A DNA stretch of 64,000 bases from contig ML769720.1 in NCBI GenBank assembly GCA_009733575.1, positions 1 to 64,000 of the forward strand, in the 5' to 3' direction. Each line of letters starts with the position of its first letter. Within the stretch, counting starts at the first letter, position 1. Both the position numbers and the translations under genes were made by a program. This stretch comes from Gymnopus androsaceus JB14. Lineage: Eukaryota; Basidiomycota; Agaricomycetes; Agaricales; Omphalotaceae. This document shows, one piece after another, positions 10,096-62,470 of this stretch. The notes below the pieces were generated by a model. It was not told the DNA's origin, made no database searches, and saw nothing but the letters and a program-made list of their open reading frames with translations.

Positions 10096-11410
10096 TCAGG
10101 CAAACCTGTTCATTTCTTCAACTTCTTGCAGAAGCTGCAGAGCTTTATTAAGCTTTCCTTGTCTGCAGTATTTATCTGCAAGGCCTCTCATGGCACACAG
10201 TGTATCTACATGATGCTTTCCCTTTATTTGCTTATACAACAAAATTACCTGCTCTCCCAGTTTCTCAGCTGCCTCCAGGTTGCTCTGGTGTATATATCAT
10301 ATATGTAGTAGTTGCAAGGCTCCTCATGGCATGCAATGTGTCAGGGGGTTACTCTCCATTCACTTGCTTATGCAGCAAAAGCACCTCTTCTTGTAGCTGC
10401 TCAGCTATCTCTAGCTTTCCCTGTTCTCTATATGTAGCTGCAAGGTTGCTCATGGAGTGCATGGTCTCACGATGATGCTCTCCACTCACTTGCTTGCGCA
10501 GAAAAAGCACCTCCTCCTCTAGCTTCTCAGCTGCCTCTAGCTTAAATTTTCCTTTGTATGTAACTGCAAGGTTGGCCATGGCACGCAGTGTCTCAGGATG
10601 ATGCTCTCCACTCACTTGCTTGTGCAGTAAGAGCACCTCCTCTGCCAGCTTCTCAGCTACTTCTAGCTTTCCCTGGCCTCTGTATGTGACTGCAAGGTTA
10701 TCCATGGCACGCAATGTCTCAGGATGGTGCTCTCTACTTACTTGCCTACTCAACAAAAGTACCTGCTCTCCCAGTTTCTCAGCTGCCTCCAGCTTTCCCT
10801 TTTCTCCATATGTAGCTGCAAGACTGGCCATGGCATGCAATGTCTCAGGATGATGTTCTCCACTCACTTGCTTACACAGGCAAAGAGCCTCCTCTGCCAG
10901 CTTCTCAGCTGCCTCTAGCTTGCCCTGGTCTCTGTATGTAACTGCAAGGTTGACCATGGAATGCAGTGTCCCAGGATGATGCTCTCCATTCACCTGGTTG
11001 TACAGTAAGAGAACCTCCTCTTCCAGCTTCTCAGCTGACTCTAGCTTGCCTTTTCCCTTGTATGTAACTGCAAGGTTGGCCATGGCACGCAGTGTCTCAG
11101 GATGATGCTCTCCACTCACTTGCTTATGCAGTAAGAGTACATCTTCTGCAAGCCTCTCAGCTACTTCCAGCTTGCCCTGGTCTCTGTACATAACTGCAAG
11201 GTTTCCCATAGCACGCAATGTCTCAGGATGATGCTCTCCACTTAATTGCTTACACAGCAAAAGTACCTGCTCTCCCAACATCTCAGCTACCTCCAGCTTT
11301 CCCTTTTCTCCATATGTAGCTGCAAGGTTGGCCATGGCACGCAGGGTCTCAGGATGCTGTTCTCCACTGACTTGCTTCACCAGCGAAAGCACATTCTCAT
11401 CCAGTCTTTC
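10096..11410 (-). repeat. 126-bp tandem repeats encoding TPRs
   Basis: Each unit encodes 42 residues ending VSGEHHP. Units follow a four-unit order in their linker words (GEKG..LGEQ, RDQG..LAE, KGKG..LEEE, RDQG..LAE), then the order repeats, indicating block duplication of about 504 bp. Confidence 0.85.
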
Positions 11411-13281
11411 ACATTGTGCCCACAAACCTCTATCCCGAAAAACTCGTGCCAGACATAACTGCACATGGATAGTAGGCAATTTTTCTTTCTGAATATGACC
11501 AGCATGTATCAATAATTGACGTCGGAACTGATAATCCATATTTTTCTCCCCCAAAGGGGTAGCATGCCCAAGCAGTAATATTGCGGCCTGCCTAAGATCT
11601 TCCTGACATTCAATAGTTTCATGGGCACATGTATGTATTACTGGGTGAAAGTCAAGCCACCTTCTCGAGCCATTGTATGATGCCAATGATAGGTGGCATA
11701 ACTCATCAATACTGTCTTCCCATGAGTCTTACTTGTCCAACAATTTGATGGCTTCGGTTGGAGGATCCAAATCAACAGGTCCAGTATCTTTGCCAGTGAA
11801 GGCAGCTGCACGTGTGAACATCTCCATCGGAATGGCAGTGGGATGGAAATGTGCACTAATTTGCATCAGAAATTGAGATGGGTAGCTAAGTTTCTCAAAA
11901 CTGAGTTGAAATGCACTAAAAACCGTTCTTTGATAGGTGTCCAGTGACCTCATTCTGTAAGTGAGAATATCTCTCCGCTTCTTGTTAAAGCGTACCAAAT
12001 AATTGGCAAGAGTACATGTTGCAGTTGTATGGATATAGGCTCCAGCTGTGGAAACTGCTAGAGCATGATATCCAAGAGCATCAACAATTTGAATGGCCAA
12101 ATTCATGTTCATTTTATAGGTCTCAATATGTGCATGTTTCAGCAGCAGCTCAATGGCATCCTCTTTATCAAGATCCCCAAAATCAATATGCCATCCAGGA
12201 GAATCCATTTCAGATGCTTCTGATAAGCGACTTGTGATAATAATATTCCCATGGTCACAACAGGGAATATAGTCCTTGAGGTAAACTTGCTTATCATCAG
12301 CATTGTCAAAGATGCACAGCCAGTTCTGATGCATCCTTGCCAGGAAGTTGTACACATCTTTGACTTCTTCACCAACACCTGCAGCTTTTCCAAGTTGTTT
12401 GAAATCTGCAGCAAGTGTGGCATTAGAAGTTGCATCCAAGAACCAGATATTTGAGAATCTGTTTCAATTTTAGTATATGGTCACATGGACTTCAGAGGTT
12501 TCTAACCTGAAAGCATTCTTAGCAATAAACTGCAGAACCACTTGTGTTTTTCCAGATCCCCCATTTGCCACAAGAGTGATAATACGTTGGGCAGGAAGCA
12601 AGCACTTTTCAACGGAGCTCATAAGGCTACCCACTGCCTCATGATCTGCACATTCAGGTAGATGGAAAGAAAAATCAGTGCATGATGCCAAACTGGAAAT
12701 GGCTGGGCTGGTGCTCATCACGAGCATAGGTGCATCAACCTGGGAAGCTGAAATATGCTCTTCCATTACCAAAGATGAGTCTGCATTTTCCAACACTAGA
12801 AGAGATTCTGCTGAAAGCACTTGATCCTTGATTATTTCTGCATATGCCTGATCTAAGGCATGACCAGAGCTTGCATCCAGAAAAGTAGGAATGCTGCTAG
12901 ACTGAGTGACTCAAAATATTTCTCACCATGAAATTCAACTCACTATTTAAGCTTTGCTTTGACAATATCCTTGAGTACATCTGTGTTTGGACTCCAAATA
13001 GTAACAACTGGCGGAGAGAATATTTTTGAGAGTCTCCGCAGTGTGTCTTTGCGTCCAACAAAGTACTGGCTAGGAGATGGGCACTGGAGAACACTTGAAA
13101 TTGAAAGAACATGTTCTGTTGAATACAAAACAAGTCAGCATCCAAATTTCTAGGATTTATATTCCATTTAACTACCATGGTTTGCAGCTCGAGGAGTTCC
13201 ATGATATGTGACATCAATAGTACTTGCAGTTGTGAATATAGATTGCCCATTGATTTGAAAGTTTGAAGCTTGAGAAAACAT
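10096..13281 (-). pseudogene. NLR (NB-ARC plus TPR) STAND protein, decayed
   Basis: The start at 13281 reads MFSQASNFQINGQSIFTTAS, a GG-F-like N-terminal motif common in Agaricomycete NLRs. Exons: 13281-13176, 13115-12944, 12896-12507, 12458-10096; introns are 60, 47 and 48 nt with GT-AG borders. After SQYFVGRKDTLRRLSK comes a P-loop-less NTPase-like stretch (WSPNTDVLKDIVKAKLK, FLDASSGHAL, LLVLENAD). A second, complete NB-ARC follows, with Walker A GGSGKT, FLDATS, WLCIFDNADD and NIIITSR. The tail is about 11 TPRs of 42 residues (ETLRAMANLA-type). NLRs of this kind are intracellular non-self or danger sensors whose TPRs likely contact ligand. Decay: an in-frame TAA at 11729-11731 interrupts LLDK/DSWEDSIDEL, a second stop at 10349 ends a TPR, and frameshifts follow. 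The last readable codon block ends MNRFA at 10096. The TAA at 11729 overlaps a GTAAGA donor, so an intron cannot be wholly excluded. Confidence 0.85.
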
Positions 13282-30575: not shown

Positions 30576-33295
30576 CTAGAGGAGTTTGGAACCTCCAAAT
30601 CGTTTCTCCAACTTGTAGGGTATGTCATCCCATAGAACTTCCGAAGGTGGTGGCAATAGTAAGGAAGTAGGGAAACCATGGAAGACCATGTCATGGCGAA
30701 CCTGGATTGTTTTTGAGTTTGGGAAGTAAATGAGGTAGCCTTTCAAATTACGGGCATAACCCATGAATCTACCTTCTTCCCCGCATTCTATGACTTTGTT
30801 GAGGCTATCGGAGTTTATCTTCCTCGAAGTCACTAGACATCCAAACGGGCATAAGTGTGAGAGGTCGGCGCATTTATTGAGGAAGGATTCAAAAGGAGTT
30901 TTATCGGATGGAAGAGCTGAATGAGGGATGCGATTCTTGATGTGTACACAGGCCTGGGCTGCTAGAGGCCAGAACCAATGTGGGAGGTTTCTGTCTACAA
31001 GCATTGAACGCATCATGCACTCAACAATTTGGATAGTCCTCTCAGCAACACCATTTTGCTGAGAGGCATCTGGCACCAACTGCTCATAGGAGATGCTGTT
31101 TTCTTTGCAGTAAGTTTTGAAGTAAAGGTGGACACGACTCCGGGTCCTGACCTGGTACCGGCAGGTTTACCTGTGGGAATACCGGCCGGTTTTTTAACCT
31201 GTGGGTCCCGGTACCGGTTTCCCATGGGTTATGCCCAGTTGCAGGTCGCCATTTTTGTTTTATTGTGACCGGCTGGTACCGGTAGACCCGTGGGAACAAA
31301 TGTTTGGCTTTAATATTGGTACCTATTTTACTACTTAGTGCCAATATAGTATACTAATATTATTGGTTAGTACTTACAGTATGTATTAGTTCTGCTTGGG
31401 ACTGATATTAGTGTCTAATACTAGTATACTTACACTAATAGTACTAATACTTTGCCAATAGTAGCTTAATTAATAGTAAGTAAGATAATAGAGGTAACAT
31501 TAAGATGCATATATGCAGCTATAGTAGCAGTGATAGTGCATACAGTAGCATAGAGATCTTATTTAGATCCTATCTCCATGTCAAAAGACATTATCAATAT
31601 TTTGGTATCATTACCACTGACATTGTATTGAATACTGTACCAATAATGGCTGGATACTTACCAGTCTTTGAATTTAGTACTAACATTGGTGCTAGAATCT
31701 AATACAAACATACTAGTACCAGTATAAGTACTAATGTTAGTACAAATATTATTACTGCTAGTGAGTGCCCTAGTATGGGCAGGTTACACAGGTACCGGCC
31801 GGTTTACCTGTGGCAGGTCCAGGTACCGGTTAACCGGTTTCCCACGGGTTTGGAACCGGTCGCAGGTCGCTAGTTTTGCCCTCCGGTTACCGGCATCACA
31901 GGTCCAGGTAAACCGGGACCCGGAGTCGTGTCCACCCTTATTTTGAAGACACCATGTATGAGTTCATTGGCGTTGTTGACGCGAAGGACAGCGACCGGGT
32001 AACCAAGATATTTTTTGACCGCGAGTCGAAATTCATAGAAGCATTGAACAGCTTCGGATTTGTGCTTTAGGAAATAAATAGTAATAAAACGCAAGTGGTC
32101 ATCGACAAAGATGATGAAGTAACGGAAACCACCATAACCATTGGGGAGAGTCCCACAGATATTGGTGTGGATGCGAAAGAGAGGACAGTCAGCTCGTGTA
32201 TATGATTGTTTGGGGAACTTTAGCCGCTTGATGTTGGCTCGCGCGCAAATGCGGCAGTTCTTGACCTGGACATTGTCAATGGGCAGTCCAGTGGTTGCGT
32301 GTTTCAGCCCTTTAACGTCTATGTGGCCCACTAGACGGTGGTAAAACCCACGCATTGAGCAAGTTTGGATTCAGTCCCTGGACCAAATAGTGTTGTAACA
32401 TCAGGCACCATTCCTGCAATCAGCAGTGATTGCGGGGACGTTGAGGAAGCACCTGATACTGATGATTCCAAGACCATGGCTTCAACAGGAACCACGTCCA
32501 TCCTGTAAAGGTCCCTAATAATGCTCCCTCTTGTGAATGAAGTACCTTTGGAACTGAAGTACGTGATTTTGCCGTCGCCAGTTCGTGTACTGACACCCTT
32601 CTTGTCAATTCTAGAACCTGAGATGAGATTACAGTGAGCAGATGGAATATGTAAGACATTCGAGAGAGAAAACATCCTCTTCGTTTTACCCATTGTTGCC
32701 TCTAGCATAATGGTACCCTTTCCGACTGCCACAGCCGAGAGTTTCAATCCAAAACCGTGAACTTGAAGTGGACTTTCTAGATTGTTATATTCGTGGAAGA
32801 AACGTTTCTCCCTGAAGATATGCCTGGTAGCCCCAGTGTCATGGTTGATGGAGTTGTCCTGCGGTACGTCCAAGTTTAGGGCAACGGCGTTGACATTGAC
32901 ATCTTCTCCGACCAAGATTTCATCATTGTCACTTTCTTCTGTGTCACCCATGATTTTCATCAGGAATGCCAACTCCTCTTCCAAGTTCCCTACCATCTCC
33001 TGCAATTCCTCTTCTGGTGGGTTGAACTCGGCCACTCCTGCAAATCGACTAGGACTTTGTTGACCTCTAAGCCAGTTATCTCTTCCACCAGTACCCTTAG
33101 TTGCTCCCTCGATAGAGCGTTTCCAGTGGACGGCGATTCTTTGCTCGGGCGAGAGATGGATATCTCTCATTCCTTTAAAGTCTGGTGGGTATTGTCCAAC
33201 TTTTCCACCACCATAGACAAAACATTCGGCTTTGGTGTGGCCAACTGGATAGGAGCAGTAGGTATTCTTGCAGATTATGTTGCATCCAGTTAAGG
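30576..33295 (-). pseudogene. pol: Copia protease and integrase (damaged)
   Basis: Zinc-knuckle-like CNIICKNTYCSYPVGHTKAE lies just after gag in another frame. The protease site is DTGAT at about 32826-32840. The integrase zinc region (YHRLVGHI, CRIC) leads into a catalytic core where two expected aspartates are asparagine: IHTNICG (codon 32161-32163) and RVNNANELIHG (codon 31975-31977). The glutamate region DASQQNGVAERTIQ is intact but lies beyond the 818-bp MITE. The integrase C-terminal part ends at 30576. Confidence 0.9.
31123..31940. mobile_element. hAT-type MITE inserted in the Copia integrase
   Basis: 818 bp with termini TAAAGGTGGACACGACTCCG and the inverse of TAAGGGTGGACACGACTCCG, flanked by a perfect 8-bp duplication TTTTGAAG (31115-31122 and 31941-31948). 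An 8-bp duplication is a hAT hallmark. The subterminal arms are rich in ACCGGTTTACC / GGTACCGGCCGG words; the middle is TACTA-rich. No ORF for transposase. Confidence 0.85.
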
Positions 33296-34877
33296 GTTTG
33301 CTTTCCTGTCATTTTGCTGAGGTTGCTTTGACTGACCTCTGTTCGCAGGTGATGTTGACATTCCTACAGATTCCTGGTTAGCTGCGTAAACGCCAGTGAC
33401 AGTGCGACCATCCATCCTGCGTGATTTCCCGGTAGCTACAATAGTGTTAATTGCAGCAAATGATGGATGGAGCTGCAATTGGACTTCCTCATTCTTTAGG
33501 GTTTGGATTACAAAGTTTGACAATAGTGGCTTCCCTGTGGCCTCCAATATCTTCAACCTGTTGCAGAGGTTGTCACGACAATAGCGCCAGTCAATGTCTG
33601 GGCTCATCAGGGTGATGAGGTGTTTGGCGAACTGGTCATTGGGCATCATATTTGGATCGGCATCTCGAAGTTGGTTGTAGAATTGGACCATAGACTGGAG
33701 CCAGGAGACAGGGTCACCTCCAGCTGGACAGGCATTGCCAATGATTTGCTGGTTGATATTGATAGCGGTGAGTGTATTAGCTGGTTCATATTCGCGCTTT
33801 AGTGCTAACCAAGCATCATGGGCACTAGCAGCATTCTGAACGACGTACAGCTTTGACAGCTGATTCTGCCAGCTTAATGCAAAAAATCACGATAAGTGTC
33901 GTGGGCCATTTTGCAAAAGATCCCGATAACTTTTAGCACTGATATTTTGGAAGCATTCACTGAATATTTGGAATATGTAGATTGTGTTGCAGAATATTTG
34001 GTAAATAAATAATGATAAAATCACCATAAATGCCTAAAATAGAAATGGCTATAGCGGGTGAAGGAGGGCCCGTGGGAAAAAACTGACACCCCCCCCCTAC
34101 CCTGTGGTAGTGATGGCTATCCAACCATAACCTTGTTTCATCCCTATACCCTAATTATCCTAACCCTAACCCTGTATATTTTAACAGTGGGGGCAAGCCC
34201 CCACACCCCCATATCATCCTCAACCCCTAAACCCTAACCCTAACCCTAATCCTACCATAATCATAATATTTGGCAAAATATTGCTTCAACATGCTAATTG
34301 GGACAATATACCCTAACCCTAACCCTAACCCTACCCTAACCTCACCTGACCTGATTGCATAATCTTCCAAATATGGTCTTAAAAATATTTGGTAAACATA
34401 AATATGGTTGCTAGAATATTTGGCAAATCATCTAGCCATATATTCCTATTCCAAAATCTCAGTGCTAAAAGTTATCGGGATCTTTTGCAAAAGCCTAGCA
34501 ACATCTAGTGGCTTTGAAGGGGGAACTGCTCTAGCGATTATTGCTCGGGCCTTCTTGTCGCCATTGAGCCAGTTCTTTGCCTTCTGCTGTGCAAGTTTGA
34601 CTTTGGCTTCGTTACCTGGGATGGTGAACATTGTCAGAATGCCCGATGCATCGAGACCTTTGGCACATTGCGTTACTCACAAATCTGGGATTCTCGGTGG
34701 ATCGTATTCTGTTCCACCGATATATTTCCAGTATCCGGCTGCATCGAGTTTGAGTTCCGATTTCTGCTTGAACTCGTTGTAGTTGTTTGTGCCATCTTTG
34801 TCCTCCTTGATAGGGAGTAGAGTGGGTTGTTTCCAATCCAATTTCTCTTTCTCTTTGGTAAGTTCCATAATAGGCAA
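33290..34877 (-). pseudogene. gag: Copia gag, interrupted
   Basis: N-terminal part MELTKEKEKLDWKQPTLLPI, ... YWKYIGGTEYDPPRIPD, then LDASGILTMFTIPGNEAKVK up to KPLDVARL at 34490. It is interrupted by the 33875-34493 insertion and resumes WQNQLSKLYVVQNAASAHDA, AWLALKREYEPANT, RYCRDNLCNRLKILEATGKP, ending at 33290. This is the UBN2/gag-polypeptide type of Copia elements. Its frame differs from that of the following protease by one base. Confidence 0.85.
33875..34493. mobile_element. TIR element carrying CCCTAA telomere-like arrays, inserted in gag
   Basis: A near-perfect inverted repeat of about 44 bp (TTTTGCAAAAGATCCCGATA...) occurs at 33908-33951 and 34449-34493, and a diverged extra copy of the left terminus lies outside it at about 33875. 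The interior holds several (CCCTAA)n runs, the longest near 34312-34340, with CCCCCACACCCCC sequence. Non-coding. Target duplication is unclear (imperfect TAAGCT/TAGGCT). Confidence 0.7.
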
Positions 34878-52638: not shown

Positions 52639-53113
52639 CTAAATTAAGTTCTTGACCATAAGGAGCTTGATGAACAAAAATATAATTGTCCAGACAAGCA
52701 AGCCTGACATCAACACGCTTGTGAAGGGGCAACCACCATTAGGCGTCCTTTTCTTCTTGCGCCTGCAGCAGTGCTTAACTTGACTCGGAGCCTCGATAAA
52801 CCTGGCAGGTCGTTGTGGATAGGCGCCTATGGAGCGCCGTGGCCCTCCAGATACGTAGATAAATCATATGAAGAGGTTTAGATTAGTAGTAAGCTCACTG
52901 TGTGTCCGGCTGCTACCTTGAGACCGCTGCCGCTCATTATCAGGATCCAATACTATGGATTATTTATGATTAACATTCGGTAATATTTTGACGACATACT
53001 GGTATGATATGTCTGCAATCGCAGCTGTGTATGGTCATACTATTCGCAAAGTAACCGCCATTCAGGTTATTGACGGAAGCACCGAGAAGTGATCCTCCGT
53101 CGAAAAGCACCAT
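52639..53113 (-). CDS. Small GG-F-motif protein with C-terminal membrane anchor (paralogue A)
   Basis: Start at 53113: MVLFDGGSLLGASVNNLNGG then YFANSMTIHSCDC, two GG-centred repeats with an aromatic. A polar linker (LDPDNERQRSQGSSRTH) follows and a basic stretch CCRRKKKRTPNGG, ending in one hydrophobic helix, SVLMSGLLVWTIIFLFIKLL. Two small introns; the first junction is uncertain in phase. Tail-anchored layout, cytosolic N-terminus (inferred). Paralogues at 56166, 58784 and 61995 share the motif. Function unknown. Confidence 0.6.
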
Positions 53114-54700
53114 GTTGTGGGTGGCTAGATGCTTGAGAAACCCTGAAAAATTGGAGGTTGAATTCCTCGGACAGTGGGGCTGGCATTCAAATTGTAGGAA
53201 GGTTCAAGTTGGTTCAATACGACTTCTGATTTATAACCATTCCAAGTTTTTTATTTATTCTTAGAACCAGTTACTCGACAAAACCATGGGATTTCAGCGG
53301 ATTAGCTGAAGGCCCGCCGTCATGATCTGTAGTGAGCGCCACCGCCACTTGTGCCCTGTGCCAACAATCTTTGAGCGCGCGCGCTAAAACGGTCAAAGCT
53401 GCAAATATTAAAGAAATTGTAAGTACTATAACCAGCAACGGTCAAATTTAGGAAGTCGAAGGACTTCGCACTGTGCGGCTTAATTTAACACTAATTTTAA
53501 TGCTCGTTGCTCACCAGAGAAATTTACAAACCGCCGGCGTCTCGGGAGAATATCTATCTTTTCAGGAACCGCATATGATGGTCCCAAGACCTGACAGATA
53601 TCACAACCGTCAAAGATAGAGAGGCGCCCACATTGCTTTCACTTACCAACTTTAGTAAGACCCAAAGGGATGAAACACCCTAAGTTCGATTTTGATCAGT
53701 TGTAGACGTAAGTTAGACAGTCTGCTCTTCGAAGGTCAAAGGCAGTGTCTCTACTAGTGACTACGAAAGGTACCATGAACAGACGCTGGGAATTGTTAAT
53801 GTTGTTGTAAGTTGTTTTGGTGATGCAAAAGACGGTACCTAATCGAAGTATGGTTCAATAGAAAGAAATGCAACACTTCCGCGCTTCCAGGGAGGAATGG
53901 AGAGCGCAATTGTCCGTTTTGTTCATGCTGTGTTGATGTAGACTGATATACGCTGTGTACATAGTATTTAAACATGTCTTTATATTTCTCTACGGTGATG
54001 GAAATACAGGAATCGGTTTTCATTTCATCTAAATAATCAATTGATACTTTTAAATGTATTTATGTACTCTAAAACCATCTAAGAGGGCCCAAACGCCCTG
54101 GTATCCAATTTTTCACGCAGGGTCAAAGATACTCAAATCGATTCAAATGCACTCGCCAGGTGTTTTAGACTCTGCTCAGGTGGTTCAGGACCTGTGAAAG
54201 CGAAGCCAAAACTGAAGGCATTTAAATGAGAACGACTTTGATGCGTTCGAGTCCATTTTACTACAATAGATTTAAATCGATTTAAATGTAGCCCTCGGAC
54301 TCGGCAGTCGCGTTGACGTTTGTTCAGTATTCGAAACAGATTTAAATCGGTCGTATTCAAGTCACTTCTGCGAACATAAGATTTAAATTGTACCCTTCTA
54401 TGCATTTTCGGATATATCAATATTCGTTTGTCTGATCTCATACCGTTAAATTTGGGATGGAAATGACTAGAAAGATTCGTGTAGATTAAAGTAGCTTGAG
54501 AGGAAGAGGGAAAATTCGAGAAGAATCTTGGGTGCTTTACATCGGCCAAAAGAAACATTGGGTCCGACTTGCGAACTCGAGCTCGAGGTGTTGCCAGAGC
54601 CCAGAGTCAGAAAGGTCTAGACACTGCAGGAGTAGTACTGATAGAGGTGTCAAGTGTGGAGGGTATGTGTACATATCATCTATAGACATCAGTTACAGCT
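53114..54700. other. Intergenic, no supported gene
   Basis: ORFs at 53796-54023 and 54133-54558 (minus) lack signatures; the latter lies in DNA with repeated GATTTAAATCG-type words (near 54270, 54342, 54380). No RNA gene seen. Confidence 0.4.
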
Positions 54701-54749
54701 CCGATAATTACAGGAAAAAATAAAGGAACTGTAGCATCAATGTGACGAA

Positions 54750-55950
54750 GGAACCAATGGCAACGGTCAACAAAAAGAACAAAGCTAAATTTGAATAGTG
54801 CGGTTCTGAACTTCTCCTTCAGCTTTACTTCAAGCACCGGGTTCACCAGAATCGGCAATGCCTCTCTAATTGGATTGGCTCAGCTGGGCTTGGACCTCCT
54901 GCTGCTGTTTTGCTCCGAGACTTCGAGACGGGATGTCATAGCGAAGGAGTCATGGTGGAAGTTGCGAAAAAAGCAGGAATAATTTCCAGTTTCAGGCCTT
55001 GATTGCGTTGGAGGAGTCAACCGATGGTCTCCTTAAGCTTGCACATTTATGAAGTGTACCACATTGATCTGCATGGGTGGTGACGATCTGGGTTTCAATC
55101 TCGGTGGAATGATGCGAAGGCTGAGCCACTACGAGGTAGGTACAAGTTTGAAGAACGTCATTCAAATAGACTTACCAGTACCAAAGACCAATCATGGAGA
55201 CAGGACTAAAGAACAGACAATCCAAGTCAGAGAACTCGGTCAAAAATATTCTGAATAAACTCAGAGTCTCGTCTGCTGTCAAAGCAGACACCAACAAATT
55301 AGTGCAAAGAGATAGGATAGTATCCGATCTCCAGCCAGTGAACTGCAGGCGGCGATGCGGTTGAACTGTAGGACAGGAACTCGTAGCATCTTCAACTTCC
55401 AATGACCAGGTAGGTGTGGAAGTTGTCTTTCATGAGATCGACGGTAAGATATCTGGTGCGTATATGGCAATGGGTTAGGTTCTGTGTGGGGACGTCAGAA
55501 ATACCAAAGTACTTACATAGGACGCGTGTCAAGAGACTGACCAAGGACAACCATCTGTGTCAAATGATCAAACAGGTCAGAGGGTTTCACTGTGACGGGA
55601 ATTTGCACTTGATGGGCAGGGAGGAAGAAGAGAGGACAGAACGGAGTAGGAGACAGCCCGCGGAAAGTGCTAAGCTTGTAAATTGAGTCTTGTTCCTTGG
55701 AAATAACCGTTGCTTGGACAGAAATACCACAAAGAAATGAGGAAGGGAAGCTTAGACGCTTAGACGCCGCCCTCTCTGTCGGAGCATGTACTCTAGTATA
55801 CAATTGCGGACTTTTTGTCTTGAGTAAACCAAAAGAACAAAGCGAGGTAAACACGAGCTCGAAAGAAAAATCAAAAACTTGGCACCCGAACTCCAGCCTG
55901 TAACAAATGACTGAAGCGCAACGAGGTGTGACGCATAGCAGTGATAACAC
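54750..55950 (-). CDS. Hypothetical multi-exon gene, unrecognised
   Basis: A first frame starting MLSLLCVTPRCASVICYRLE (55950-55513) ends at a plausible GTAAGT donor. A TTTCTGACGTCCCCACACAG acceptor leads to NLTHCHIRTRYLTVDLMKDN, and another frame contains DTILSLCTNLLVSALTADET and FRIFLTEFSDLDCLFFSPVS up to a GTAAGTC donor. The exon chain is my best guess and the 3' end is not settled. No known domain. Confidence 0.3.
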
Positions 55951-56165
55951 AGAGTAACATTAGAAAAGACTATATTAGGCTGCATTGCTGTATATTGCTG
56001 TATACATCACATGAGAAAGTGCAGCTGAAACCACGACCGATCAATAGTATAATGGGCAGGATAATGTCTTATCAAGAAGGAAGGAACTTGGAAGTTGATT
56101 ATACGGCACGGTCCCAAGACAGGAGCGCCGGTTCAATGAACTGCCACGTCTTCACTAACACTTGG

Positions 56166-56598
56166 TTAGAGCAACAGTGCTAACAGCACCAACATCACCA
56201 ATATAATGACGATGCAGACCCACTGGCAGTCATACGGGAAGATTTCCCTACAGAAAATATCAATTCAAAAAGAGCTCAGCACATTAATGTAAGAGAAAGC
56301 TCACTCAGAGTGCGTCTGAATGCTGGGAGATTCGAGAGGATGACTCCAGGATCGATATTGTTGATGGTTTTCTGTATCTAGTAGTATGCTAGTCAGTGAA
56401 AAAAAAGTAGTTCATTATACTTCACGACGTACCGGTATGATTAAGACTATTGAGGTTGTTGGCGAAATAACCACCATATATATTATCGATGTTAGAACCA
56501 GTCAAAGTTCCGCCACTGACTATACGAAAAGTAGAATGCATTTTGGGTTTACTTTGAATCGGTTTTCTGTTGCGAGTTTGAGGGTGGGACGAAGGCAT
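56166..56598 (-). CDS. Small GG-F-motif protein with C-terminal membrane anchor (paralogue B)
   Basis: Start MPSSHPQTRNRKPIQSKPKM at 56598, then FRIVSGGTLTGSNIDNIYGG and YFANNLNSLNHTG. A phase-1 intron (GTACGT..CTAG) joins DTENHQQYRSWSHPLESPSI, then a second intron (GTGAGC..TGTAG) joins EIFPYDCQWVCIVIILVMLV and LLALLL, a terminal hydrophobic helix. About 105 residues. The first exon also has an upstream ATG at 56688. It shares motif, intron phase and tail anchor layout with paralogue A. Function unknown. Confidence 0.65.
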
Positions 56599-57290
56599 CT
56601 TCGGCGATTCTGGTGAAAGAAAACCGAAGAGCTGTATTTTATCATAGAATGAACGTGGTACTGCTGCGAGGCGAACGCGAGTATTCAAATATTCACTGTC
56701 CTTTTCGGGTTATCCGGGCGCTTTCAGCATAATACCATTAATATGATCAGACGAGTGATAATGCAGACGTATAGGATTCGTTAAAGTTTCTTCAATGATA
56801 TCCATCTGAACCTGCATGTTAAGCACAAGAAAACAAGAAACGAGAAGTGCGCACCGATGAAAATCTATAAAATACAAAGGCGAGTACATGCTTCCATAAT
56901 GTCAAGACAAACGATGTGGTCTGAGTGACAAGCAGAAGAGGATGTCGGAGAAGGTGGTCTCAAAGACAAAACCAGCCGAGATCGACGTGAAAGGAGGGTG
57001 AGCGCCATGAGCAAATGAAGATGGAGTTTAGGACAAGATGGACGACGCAATTGTCCTGAGCTACAAAAAGCTTTCGAAAGTGAGATGGACTGAGATAGAG
57101 TAGCCAAAAAAAACAGCACCGTCACGGTATGGTCCCGTGCTATTGGGATGCGACGGAAAAGAGTGCCATGGGGCTTTTAGGGTCCTACCTCGGAGCTAAT
57201 TTAGTAAACGTAGGACTTTCCTAGTACAGAGGTCTATGGACATGTTCACATTCCGGGTTCAATTCGAAGGAGGAAAGGGAGGGAGGATAT

Positions 57291-57350
57291 ACAAGGTGGA
57301 TAACACACACTGTAGGTTATTTGAAATAGAGTGTGTGTTATCCATCTTGT
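57291..57350. repeat. 21-bp inverted repeat hairpin
   Basis: ACAAGGTGGATAACACACAC(T) and its inverse, with a single mismatch, are separated by 18 nt. It is not clearly part of a transposon. Confidence 0.7.
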
Positions 57351-57598
57351 CAATCCCGAAAGGGGAGGTGAATGCAAGTCAAACACAAGTTACGCTTTAC
57401 GTCACCCTGTGAGAAAACTTTCACGGGAGAAGCCTGCCGGCAGCGGCGTAAGCGACGATTCGGACGATCTCCTCTTACAGTACTATCACTGCACAGAGGT
57501 CGAAGAGAGCGATGATGACGAGTATATTTCCCTCTTTGAAAGAGCGATGCTAGGCTGGATATAGAAACGGTGAGTACTTATAAGTACTCCCTCTGTTC

Positions 57599-58783
57599 AT
57601 CTCCATTTCCCTGACGATTGTTCTCCTTCTGGCCGATTTTCCGTCAGCGCTTTCTTCCGCATCCTCATTGTCTACGCCAAATTATTTCTTGTATTCTCTC
57701 AGCGCGATCCCTGATCCTTGTTACACGACAGTCTAACATGGCTTACAATAATAAACATAGTTCTACTTTAGCCAAAGCCTTCAAATTCTTAATTGAACAG
57801 TATGGATGAATTTTGGCAACGACGAGCTCGTTTTTTTCGGCTCTCAGGTTCTTCTCCATCATTTTGCTCATGTCGCGAACCTGTCGTTACTACTTGCGTA
57901 CTGTATTTTGCTCGATGGCGCCAATTATGCGATTCGGACAAGACATGGAAGAGGTTCAAAACAATTTACTAACTTGTTCTTCTTGTAGTCTGTATCGGAC
58001 TCGTAGCGATTTAACTCTGGAAAGCTCGACCTTTCTTCCACAACGCCCTTGCTCCATCGCCTTCTCAAGTGCTGTTCTTTATCCATCTACTTGAAACGAT
58101 GCCTACAGGATTGCTGGATATAAAGCTACCTCGATCTCGCTCTCGCGTCACCGATATCAACACCAAGAAATGAACGAAGTCATTCCTAACATCTTTGTCC
58201 TCCAGAAGTTTCCTTATCTCGACTTTCATAAGAGGAATCGTGGTATCTTGTCGATTATATGTTGACGACTGTCGTTCAAATCTCCGAATTTATTTCACCA
58301 TCCCTAGTCGAGCGATGTCGTTCCCGATTTTTTCTCCTTCCCATCCTCAGTAGTTTGCCGCATCTACGTTGAACATTTCTACTTGTCCGATGGATCTGTG
58401 TTTGGTTATATAGGTATTAATATCTGGTAAATGGAATCTAAATGGTATGAAACATTATGCAGCAAGGACGCGGAATTGGAAAGGTGCATCTTGTATTGGT
58501 TCTAAGCGACTTTCGCCGAAGCTGACTAGCTATGTATATTACTGGGCGGATCTTGAACCCGACAATTACGCCGTATAAGTAAAGAGATTGACAGAATTGG
58601 ATGGTTTAAGAGTAAAGGCTCGGACTTGGACTGGGTTAGTAGCGGGGGGGTATAAGCGCTCAAGTTCTCAAGCTACATGGAAATGAAAAGTAGGTCTTAA
58701 GGAACGTGGGTCAGACGATTTGATCCAGGGTCTCGCTGAATGAATGACATACACTAGAACTTTTACAACAGAGTAACATTCCG
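57599..58783. other. Intergenic, no supported gene
   Basis: Short overlapping plus-strand ORFs at 57618-58094 lack signatures. A small acidic ORF at 57331-57564 (EVEESDDDEYISLFERAMLG) just upstream is possible but unsupported. Confidence 0.35.
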
Positions 58784-59145
58784 TTACCGACGCCAATGTC
58801 CGGTAGGAGTGGTAGCGGTAGGACCTCGCTGCGGACCACTGCGTTGTGGCCCCGTGGAAGGATGGGCATTGGATTGAGACTGACCACTAGTACTAGTACC
58901 TGCTAGTATGCTGGTCAGTAGAATATCATTCAGTAATACTTCACCGACGTACCGGAAGGGTTGGTGTCGTGAAAGCTCATAGTAGTGGCAAAATGACCTC
59001 CACTCACAGTGTCGATAAGAGAGCCGACAAAGGATCCTCCGCTGACAGTTTGGAATGATGGGCACATTGTGGGTTGACTCGGTTGAGTACCATGTTGATG
59101 ACTTGGACTTGTGGTACTATGAACAGAGCTTGGATAGCGTTCCAT
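58784..59145 (-). CDS. Small GG-F-motif protein, soluble (paralogue C)
   Basis: Start MERYPSSVHSTTSPSHQHGT at 59145 (another in-frame ATG lies at 59187). The motif region is SFQTVSGGSFVGSLIDTVSG then GHFATTMSFHDTNPSG. A phase-1 intron with GTACGT donor and TAGCAG acceptor joins a low-complexity tail STSGQSQSNAHPSTGPQRSG ending TPTGHWRR. Unlike paralogues A and B it has no terminal hydrophobic helix, so it should be soluble. Function unknown. Confidence 0.65.
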
Positions 59146-59187
59146 CGTCGTGAGGATTTTGGGGATTTGAGATTTGAAGAACTTCAA

Positions 59188-61994
59188 GAATTCCTGTGTT
59201 ATCTTTTATACCAGACTGCTACCGCAAGGCGAGGATGAGGCAACAGATTCCAAACATTTCTTGCCACCGCTTTGAAGCCGACTGGAACACGCGACTGCAG
59301 GACGCTTCATTGGATGGCTCGCGTTAATGAGCGTAAGTCAATACAAGTTGAATGAACGTCAGCGGAAGTTCCCAAAGATGGAAAGTCGCACAGCATGAAA
59401 AGCTGTTTATCGCACCGCATGATCCTGAAACCAAAACGAGCATCTCTACACCTAGATAAATGTCTTGCTGATAATAGCCAAGTAACCGCCAGGAGGAGCT
59501 TGAAATCCGAGAGAAGCTGTATAAAATGCCTAGACGTGGGCGCCTGCTCAATCAGAATCTGCAGATTCTAGGCTTCTGGCAGAGCGTGATAAGGGAGGGA
59601 GACAAGAGCGTGGGCCTAGAATTACAAAATATTCAATTGCGTCCTTTTCGAGCAAGCGACGAACGAATCCATTTCAAGATAGGTGCTCCTAGCCAGAGCC
59701 GACTCTTTGAGGTTTGCTCGACAAGTTCCGAGCTGATTCGTTGAGAGAGATACTAGACCTAGTAGCGAAAGGCCAGACGATAAAAGGAAGGATATCGATG
59801 ATAACACCATGTCATTGGCGGAGGAGATCTGGCACTGGCAGAGATAAGACGTGGTTGAGGACGTCTCCGTGAAAGGAAGAAAAGAGGGCACCAGAAGCAA
59901 AAATCATCAATAGGAAGAGTTGAAAGGATTTTCATATATACTTTGACAACGCTCAGTGGAGTCTGAGGTATACGATACCGGTTAGCAAACTTCCAGGATA
60001 ATTTTATCCTATCCTATGTTATCCTTCCACCGCCGTGGCTGGGATTCATATTGTGGTAAATTGACCTGACGTTTGGGGCGCATTTTGGATTGGGCACGAG
60101 GCCCACAAGTCCGATTTCATGAAAAAGTCCCGTGGCTTTTGCTTTCGACATGTTGCTGCCGCAAGGCGAGGGCGAGGGAACGGGTTGAGGGAATAGACTC
60201 TAGACATGCGGCGACTGCACGCCAGTTGTGTGACAGGTGCGTTCCTTCGTTTACCCCGATTACCTTCCTATCCGAACGCAATCTAAGCGACCCAAAACTA
60301 GGATTTTCTAGGATTTCCAAATGGAATTAGAGCGAGAACATGAACAAGGGAACTTAGGGAAGGTATTAGAATGAGATGAACGAGGGAAAGAGGAGAAAAT
60401 ATGAATGGAAGAAGGGCTTACCGAGGTACGCCAACGTAAGATGTCGTGAGCCCACGACATAATCTGGTTCAGAATATTACCTGAATACCTCCCACCCCTT
60501 TCAAACGACGAATACCCTCCAATTTATCATCGAAGCGTAATTTAGTCGGCACGGGAGGTTATCGACAACGAGCGCTGTGGCCATTCCAGCGGACTAGACA
60601 GAGGCGATAAACGGAGGCGATATAGGCGCCTTGGGGGAAATCTGGGGAAATGATCAAAACAAACGGGACTCTCTCGAAAATTGATAAGATTGACGGAGAT
60701 GAAACCTCTCTTGGTCTAATGCATCATCAAAGCCCCTCTTCTGACTAGGACCTCATCGTCAATGAATGAAACCGTCAACGGCAAGATCATTGGCACTGTC
60801 AACATCGTTTCTTGTCTTCAGAGGCTGAGGGAGGGCACACGGAATCCCTCGAGTGACGATTCGAGCCGTGCGCGCCAAAGCTAATCAACGTCCTCTAGCT
60901 ATTATCTTCCCTAGGAAACAAGATAGAAGTATCAAAACAAAATCGAGGTAGCCTCTTGATACCCCTCCCACGCAAATGAACGAAGCGTTAGTGTGTAAAG
61001 TAAGTGCGAATGAAGTGCCACCAGGGCTGTCGTATTAAATGCTTTTATAGGAGCTAAGGTAAGTCACTGCTGCCAAACGGCAGTGGCACGCTAGGAATGC
61101 ATTTTCAGTAATCCCAGCCTGCTTTCTGTTCAGAAGCGAAGCCCTTGGCCACCGCAATCAGACTCAATAGTGATATTTTACTGTTTAGCTTGGAGAATGT
61201 TTCTTATATCTTTCTGTTGAGAGAAAAACAAGGAGTAAAGAAAGAGAAGGCACTGCGCAGTGGAAGCACCACGCAGTGAGCTCGCTGTAACGAAAAGGAG
61301 GGTTTGGGGTCTCTTTTACCTTTCCCCAGTCCAGACTTTTTCCCGAGGTCACAGTTTTGGTGCTGGTTTACTATTCGGAGGTGTTGTTGGTTTTACGGGT
61401 AATTTGTTTTTAGGTCTCGTTTCTTAAGGTTGTTTGGAGAGTCTCTTTCTCCGTAGTTCCCCCCCTCGGAGCCTTAGCATGACAGTGCTTGTCACCAGTC
61501 TCGTTGTGGCGAATCGATGAAAGCTCCGGAGATTGATTCAACAGATGTTAGTAGTGCATAGGCACTAAATACGTCCAGCGATTCTGCTTTTTTCTGGAAA
61601 GGTACTTCTCCCGTGATTTCTTACCGTTATATGCTCAGATCGGATATGATTTGGAGTCGAAGGTACAATGTCTTCTTGACACAGTGTCTGCCGCCTGGCT
61701 GCTCCTCTAACCCCACACCTCGTTTTTTGGATCTAAACTCCGCACGGGTCGAGGTAGGCTTCTTCGGCGATCCTTAGATGAAGAGGTGCTTTCAGTACTC
61801 GCATCAACAATTCATGCAGGAACGAAATTAAATACAGAGGTTCAAGTGCCAAGCTGGAAGAAAACCGAGTACTATTTACACAAGGAATCGTACTGGAAGT
61901 TTCTAAGTTCATGTAGTAAGCAAAGATATCGTAGGAGCAAAAACGAGTGGTCCGACGAGCATGAAGACCATGAATCAGTACTGTGGTGTAAAAC
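59188..61994. other. Intergenic, no supported gene
   Basis: Scattered short ORFs on both strands, without introns or motifs that convince. No repeats or RNA genes identified. Confidence 0.4.
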
Positions 61995-62470
61995 CTAAGC
62001 AACGCGAGGGTGGGTGTGATGTGGGATCGGAGGCGTGTGTGGAGAGAGTATACTGCCGCGGAGTAGTACTTGTTGACTGTCCTGAGAACATCCATACATG
62101 TTAAGAAATTCTTGGATGAATTAAAAATCCAGCTCACTTCTACTAGGTTGCTTCTAGGTGTAATGTCGGATTGAGACTGCGACGGCCAACCTGAGTGATA
62201 GTCAGAGGGAATTATAAGTCAATTAGAAAGGCCTGAAAACACACTGGCATGTCTGGTGCTACCATATTGTACAGTCATGGTACCAGCATCATGAAAATGA
62301 CCACCGTTAATGTTAAAACCAAAAGCACCGACAAAAAATCCTCCGGTGACAGTACCAAACGTAGGACTGTAGTCAGGATGGTGATGTTTGCGCGTTCGAC
62401 CCTTATAATTAGGCCTACGAGATCCCCGATTGTACGGATGGGTGTCTCGGGAGATCTGAGGGTTGGACAT
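61995..62470 (-). CDS. Small GG-F-motif protein (paralogue D)
   Basis: Start MSNPQISRDTHPYNRGSRRP at 62470, a basic N-terminus (GRTRKHHHPDYSPTFG), then TVTGGFFVGAFGFNINGGHF and HDAGTMTVQYGSTRHA. A phase-1 GTGTGT..CACTCAG intron is likely, giving WPSQSQSDITPRSNLVE. A further GTGAGC intron leads to a short tail ending in TAG at 61995-61997. If unspliced the ORF would end at 62219. No membrane helix. Same motif and first-intron phase as paralogues B and C. Confidence 0.5.

Follow-up and report, generated by a model that had tools for sequence, protein, structure and literature searches.

Do four small genes of Gymnopus androsaceus JB14, a mushroom-forming fungus (Agaricales, Omphalotaceae), encode partners of the NOD-like receptors (NLRs) whose N-terminal motif they resemble? 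The genes, named A to D by position (A 53113-52639, B 56541-56166, C 59145-58784 and D 62470-61995), lie on the minus strand of contig ML769720.1, of which bases 1-64000 (of 71,197) constitute the window analyzed here; the assembly as a whole comprises 83.3 Mb. An earlier note on this DNA had proposed that the genes could encode stand-alone partners or membrane-acting effectors of NLRs, or represent a lineage-specific expansion. In the NWD2/HET-S (HRAM) system, a receptor and a second, membrane-acting protein have one short motif in common. The same shared-motif principle is stated in the author summary of a survey of fungal NLRs (Wojciechowski et al., 2022; PMC9815663).

A tandem family of four genes

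A to D are real genes and form a tandem paralogous family. The peptides with the doubled motif that the earlier note had read in four minus-strand genes were all located (A 53054-53104, B 56470-56520, C 58996-59046 and D 62300-62350), and the doubled-motif pattern, run through the six frames of the window, matched these four and nothing else. Gene B (exons 56541-56433, 56377-56305 and 56247-56166; 87 aa; motif core LTGSNIDNIYGGYF, C-terminal end CIVIILVMLVLLALLL), for which an in-frame ATG is also found upstream at 56598, is identical to NCBI BT96DRAFT_1003756, annotated as "hypothetical protein" of G. androsaceus JB14, and gene D (exons 62470-62245, 62190-62138 and 62081-61995; 121 aa; motif core FVGAFGFNINGGHF) is identical to BT96DRAFT_980885; the junctions of P0001 and P0002 agree with those of B and D. 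No protein was returned for A or for C in the protein database searches. Gene C has two exons (59145-58953 and 58899-58784; 102 aa; motif core FVGSLIDTVSGGHF), the last of which is without the second intron present in B and D. A phase-1 intron following the motif in B, C and D had been claimed and was confirmed, and intron 1 of A is in phase 0. The splicing of A is uncertain; exon 1 (53113-53000) carries the motif core LLGASVNNLNGGYF, donors 52999 and 52898 resemble those of B, and a possible continuation through 52932-52899 and 52844-52639 gives a protein of 117 aa with a basic stretch and then a C-terminal hydrophobic helix. In D, C and B, the doubled motif starts at residues 38, 31 and 5, respectively, and 8, 12, 38 and 45 residues precede the motif core in A, B, C and D, respectively, as counted on the gene models. 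For A, C and D, a TATA-like site precedes the ATG by 122, 65 and 77 bases, respectively, and no site of that form was found upstream of B.

On the contig, B and C matched each other with E 4e-7, A and B with 8e-5 to 1.5e-4, and D and C with 7.5e-5 (0.39 when C was the query); matches of A with D (E 0.02-0.42) and of B with D (E 0.12-7.9) were weak. A profile of the four motifs scored its own builders A to D with 59-74 bits and any other of the 2339 open reading frames (ORFs) of the contig with at most 4.2 bits. At the DNA level, the alignment of B with C extends through exon 1 and intron 1 (61% over 187 bases) and that of A with C covers 73 bases (67%), with an 11-base insertion in A relative to C located before intron 1 of A. 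Over the 21 motif codons, the proportion of synonymous differences (pS, 0.44-0.73) exceeded that of nonsynonymous differences (pN, 0.29-0.39) in 6/6 pairs; since each pair offers only about 16 synonymous sites, this only suggests constraint on the motif. When the four motifs were used singly as queries against the assembly (E<=10), with a tool that scores the best candidates only, they gave 3, 3, 2 and 3 matches including self, all of them cluster members, with cross-matches at E 0.008-0.085. A profile search of the PDB gave a best E of 1.1. Within the reach of the searches, the lineage-specific expansion holds, and it is compatible with a role of the proteins as partners.

Resemblance to the NLR-type motif

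It is the second half of the doubled motif (F-x-G-[AS]-x-x-[FI]-x-[IV]-x-G-G-x-F) that can be aligned without gaps to the motif opening NLR and kinase-like genes of this genome, and the core F-x-x-[AS]-x-x-[FI]-x-[IV]-x-G-[GS]-x-F is found in one register, strongly in D and only jointly in A to C. With a gap-free profile of 17 motifs (6 from NLR, 8 from kinase-like and 3 from other loci), the joint position-specific score of A to D was 53.4 in the register of the second GG, and this score was reached by 1/20000 column shuffles with all registers allowed, or by 15/20000 when the joint test was made on A to C without D; column shuffles split the GG pairs, so that the match is flattered. The first-GG register, which was also considered, was rejected on its joint score of 0.5, a value that serves as a built-in control against the idea that any GG-x-F suffices.

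Because the 17 motifs mixed NLR, kinase-like and other loci, the joint test was repeated by class. It gave 1/5000 shuffles with the NLR-only profile (11 motifs), 2/5000 with the NACHT/WD40 profile (28/5000 without D), 0/5000 with the kinase-like profile (11/5000 without D) and 5/5000 with the profile of the other class (47/5000 without D), and was weakest with the profile of tetratricopeptide repeat (TPR)-type NLRs (145/5000). Among the 63,272 window positions ranked with the combined profile, D was first with 14 columns (0/5000 shuffles) and the start of the window's own NLR second, followed by B at rank 5 (50/5000), A at rank 10 (36/5000) and C at rank 11 (140/5000). The ranks of A, B, C and D were 8, 4, 20 and 1 with 17 columns and 42, 6, 12 and 1 with 21 columns; D stood above the window's NLR start at all three column counts tried and was the first or second window position for the class profiles. 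The program hhalign placed the second half of A to D on the motif (P 0.00094, with a probability of only 22%), a 16-sequence MAFFT alignment placed it in the same register, and a hidden Markov model (HMM) of 25 genome motifs scored D beyond its shuffles (3/1000).

Taken together, A to D most likely carry the NLR-type motif, D clearly and A to C through the family, and their version is not especially that of the TPR-type NLR in the window. The resemblance to NLR N-termini claimed in the earlier note is supported by the profile tests when the second GG is aligned, and is weakest for the very NLR which it had named. Single-sequence searches, with matches confined to the cluster, came near the outcome that the note had set against its own idea, and the joint profile tests speak for a relation of the family to NLRs.

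C-terminal ends and predicted structure

Hydrophobic helices had been described at the ends of A and B. Gene B indeed encodes a single C-terminal hydrophobic helix, present also in the NCBI model, and C and D have no such helix, as had been described; the hydrophobic end of A is conditional on the choice of splice sites. With donors 52999 and 52898, 12/36 GT-AG models of A end in the hydrophobic tail and the other 24 stop elsewhere, and over all donors the tail is reached by 23/60 two-intron, 0/11 one-intron and 0/1 unspliced models. The statement that every model of A ends in the tail was consequently discarded, as it held only while that end was demanded. In the tail models, the helix comes within four residues of the stop at 52639 and a basic stretch lies ahead of it.

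Structure prediction, also proposed in the earlier note, gave confidence for the tail of B only. The AlphaFold2 (AF2) single-sequence model of B contains a 21-residue helix (66-86) with a predicted local distance difference test score (pLDDT) of about 96 and falls below 70 in most of the remainder, and that of D is below 70 throughout. Directly 3' of the stop of D, an out-of-frame hydrophobic run with a terminal stop was observed (61909-61971, minus strand), which is possibly a lost tail anchor and possibly chance.

The motif elsewhere in the genome

Four NLR-type N-terminus queries listed 8, 28, 32 and 19 overlapping places in the assembly (E<=10). We classified 54 loci (L021-L074) by local tblastn (E<=1e-4) with queries drawn from some of these loci and from the window, and found NLR-like sequence beside the motif in 35, kinase-like sequence in 13, a third type in 2 and none in 4; in this count L027 and L056 are one place, L023 is two places, and loci of the 32-place query enter only where another search also yielded them. 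Pfam recognized NACHT and WD40 domains in L025 and L026 and WD40 in L024 and L069. A donor heuristic applied to 46 motif loci gave phase 1 in 23, phase 0 in 15 and phase 2 in 8; a phase-1 donor was therefore rejected as proof of a shared exon, for which it provides weak support.

The kinase-like loci (L022, L023, L027 and L056-L065; 13/54) make up a family distinct from NLRs in which the motif is followed by a pattern resembling a kinase N-lobe. Its best PDB match was the roco4 kinase (E 0.1, with a query assembled by eye), and no convincing Pfam match was obtained in the stretches tried. One of these loci, L023 (C247:79500-89000), contains two copies of one motif gene, inverted, facing each other and about 6 kb apart. 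Two other loci, L071 and L073, are paralogous and have the motif apparently in an internal exon, with an acidic exon before and a Pro-rich stretch after it; the motif of L071 was among the best matches to the profile of the small proteins (10.6 bits). The best match to that profile (13.3 bits) was the motif FHGANGFEINGGAFSNAGRD of L021 (C64:91430-91522), where neither NLR nor kinase-like sequence was recognized nearby and no in-frame ATG was seen just upstream, and which may represent a relic or an inner exon.

The NLR of the window and its surroundings

The TPR-type NLR of the window (10349..13281, minus strand) shows a P-loop GGSGKT by eye and TPR repeats. Its motif exon (13176..13281, minus strand; FSQASNFQINGQSIF) ends at a phase-1 donor at 13175, and the motif peptide (13234-13281, minus strand) occupies the very N-terminus. 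In-frame TAA stops are present at 11731 and 10351, and the gene looks like a broken copy, presumably a pseudogene. Together with its weakest profile, these stops led us to reject it as a specific partner of A to D. A tblastn scan of the contig with three NLR queries and one WD40 query found a single NLR-like stretch, at 11732-13113 in this gene, and Pfam covered 30/59 ORFs of at least 120 aa in the window and 6/23 ORFs of at least 80 aa beyond it. Between the NLR and the cluster, pieces of a Copia-type retrotransposon were found (30576-33886, minus strand; gag, integrase, Pol_BBD and SH3), of which the gag and integrase matches fall below the cut-off of Pfam.

Comparison with known systems

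A meta-family of five amyloid-like motifs, NLR05, NLR08, NLR22, NLR29 and NLR44, has been described at the N-termini of Agaricomycete NLRs (Wojciechowski et al., 2022). According to Table 1 of that paper, the five motifs of this largest Agaricomycete group occur in 387, 138, 263, 60 and 24 NLRs, with 0 neighbor and 0 effector proteins, and the text describes effector-side motifs as seemingly rarer, places NLR05/22 at the very N-terminus and names a G[DN] end for the motif in Gymnopus luxurians. The NLRs of G. androsaceus fit this description, with a short motif that is usually very N-terminal in many Agaricomycete NLRs, and we infer, by comparison with the text of the paper, that their motif belongs to one of its classes. 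A to D differ from these cases in that they are not NLRs, carry the motif internally after an extra half-repeat instead of at the very N-terminus, and are without G[DN].

With NWD2/HET-S the family shares the idea of a motif common to a receptor and a separate protein. Unlike in that system, A to D have no HeLo, HELL or MLKL domain, the motif is not C-terminal and no receptor gene adjoins them; regarding features of HET-S-like effectors, Pfam recognized no pore-forming or enzymatic domain, and the genes do not adjoin a cognate NLR. For Moniliophthora roreri and Fibularhizoctonia, the same survey puts forward a few pairs with MLKL-like proteins at the genome-wide level, and in two species it mentions HeLo proteins that carry HET-s motifs (Wojciechowski et al., 2022), so that the question of partners has already been taken up. 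None of the titles and abstract openings listed in the literature searches names stand-alone or tail-anchored carriers of the motif. In the present genome, two neighboring ORFs with an MLKL_N domain (PF22215; L076 and L077 on C52) are candidates for the classical output arm; like the role proposed for A to D, they could be a membrane-acting output of NLR pathways, and the motif was not recognized in the 3.3-kb stretches examined at these two places (best 4.7 bits).

Possible roles of the family

We tentatively read A to D as lineage-specific stand-alone carriers of the motif which may plausibly be partners or receivers of motif-bearing receptors, a possible rather than a probable account. The motif would serve homotypic interaction, probably as a beta-arch; B (and A) would be tail-anchored receivers that present it on the cytosolic side of a membrane and that activated motif-bearing receptors may recruit or template; C and D would be soluble variants, acting as decoys or regulators or persisting as relics. 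A receiver in its simplest form would be a stand-alone carrier that also has a tail anchor, with the motif in the cytosol and the helix in a membrane. That the motif fronts several architectures in this genome was counted in favor of this reading. The further step, that B (and A) represent a new kind of output partner for Agaricomycete NLRs, minimal tail-anchored proteins with hardly anything beyond the receptor's motif and a membrane helix, on which receptor activation would seed assembly directly at a membrane with no HeLo/MLKL-type pore domain, and that C and D are soluble regulators of this assembly, appears unlikely.

Several observations weigh against a role as receivers. Regarding the motif, B and C alone scored best in the first-GG register of the 21-column profile (narrowly for B), the joint tests without D gave 41/5000 for the NLR-only profile and 215/5000 for the TPR-only profile, which preferred the first register, and in the 25-motif HMM A (163/1000), B (74/1000) and C (128/1000) remained within shuffles. 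In the reverse direction, the profile of A to D placed three of the 25 genome motifs beyond all 500 shuffles (L021, L064 and L071), with 0 recognized NLRs among them, the single-sequence assembly searches with the A to D motifs found no NLR at E<=10, and the G[DN] end was found in 0/4 of the family compared to 14/25 genome motifs. Regarding the proteins, Pfam gave no domain in A to D at E<=1 (A and D run as earlier models), the AF2 models of B and D show no structure for the motif, most models of A lack the tail, and hydrophobic ORF ends are not rare in the window (23/2317 ORFs, 0.18 per kb of strand). No relatives of the cluster outside the G. androsaceus genome were found in a database of 5.8 billion proteins, where the search needs shared 5-residue words and distant relatives could therefore escape. 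Finally, the only NLR-like stretch that the tblastn queries found on the 71-kb contig (11732-13113) lies about 39 kb from the cluster and looks broken. With no effector domain recognized, this distant NLR, one sure and one conditional anchor among four proteins, and no relatives found elsewhere, the findings speak against the step to partners or membrane-acting effectors proposed in the earlier note.

An alternative of much the same likelihood, which also falls short of an even chance, is that A to D form a lineage-specific tandem family related by descent to the NLR motif exon and devoid of a signaling role, consisting of duplicated motif exons that acquired differing 3' ends, some of them decaying. 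Such a history would agree with a family known from one species only in the searches made, with tails that differ among the members, with the changed phase of intron 1 and the insertion ahead of it in A, with the missing second intron of C and with database models for 2/4 genes only. On the other hand, B, C and D have open frames and A may have one, pS exceeds pN in all pairs, albeit over 21 codons only, and the N-terminal extensions ahead of the motif differ from exon 1 of NLRs. It is rather improbable that the proteins are soluble or membrane-tethered decoys which cap or sequester assemblies of the NLR motif and dampen the response; C and D, having neither anchor nor recognized domain, and the absence of the G[DN] end in 4/4, as a capping variant might show, would suit such a function, but G[DN] is also missing in 11/25 genome motifs. 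Chance resemblance of an unrelated glycine-rich repeat family is about as improbable, for although A, B and C taken singly stay within the range of shuffles under the HMM, direct searches do not reach NLRs and broken GG pairs flatter the match, the joint test gave 1/20000 when the other GG-x-F of the same peptides scored 0.5, and the NLR-only and kinase-like-only profiles gave a similar outcome.

If A to D are indeed stand-alone carriers of the receptors' motif, small proteins of this kind, at least one of them with a membrane anchor, would be cheap and testable candidates for the partners of motif-bearing receptors, and such partners may be worth seeking among short orphan genes that are overlooked by domain searches.

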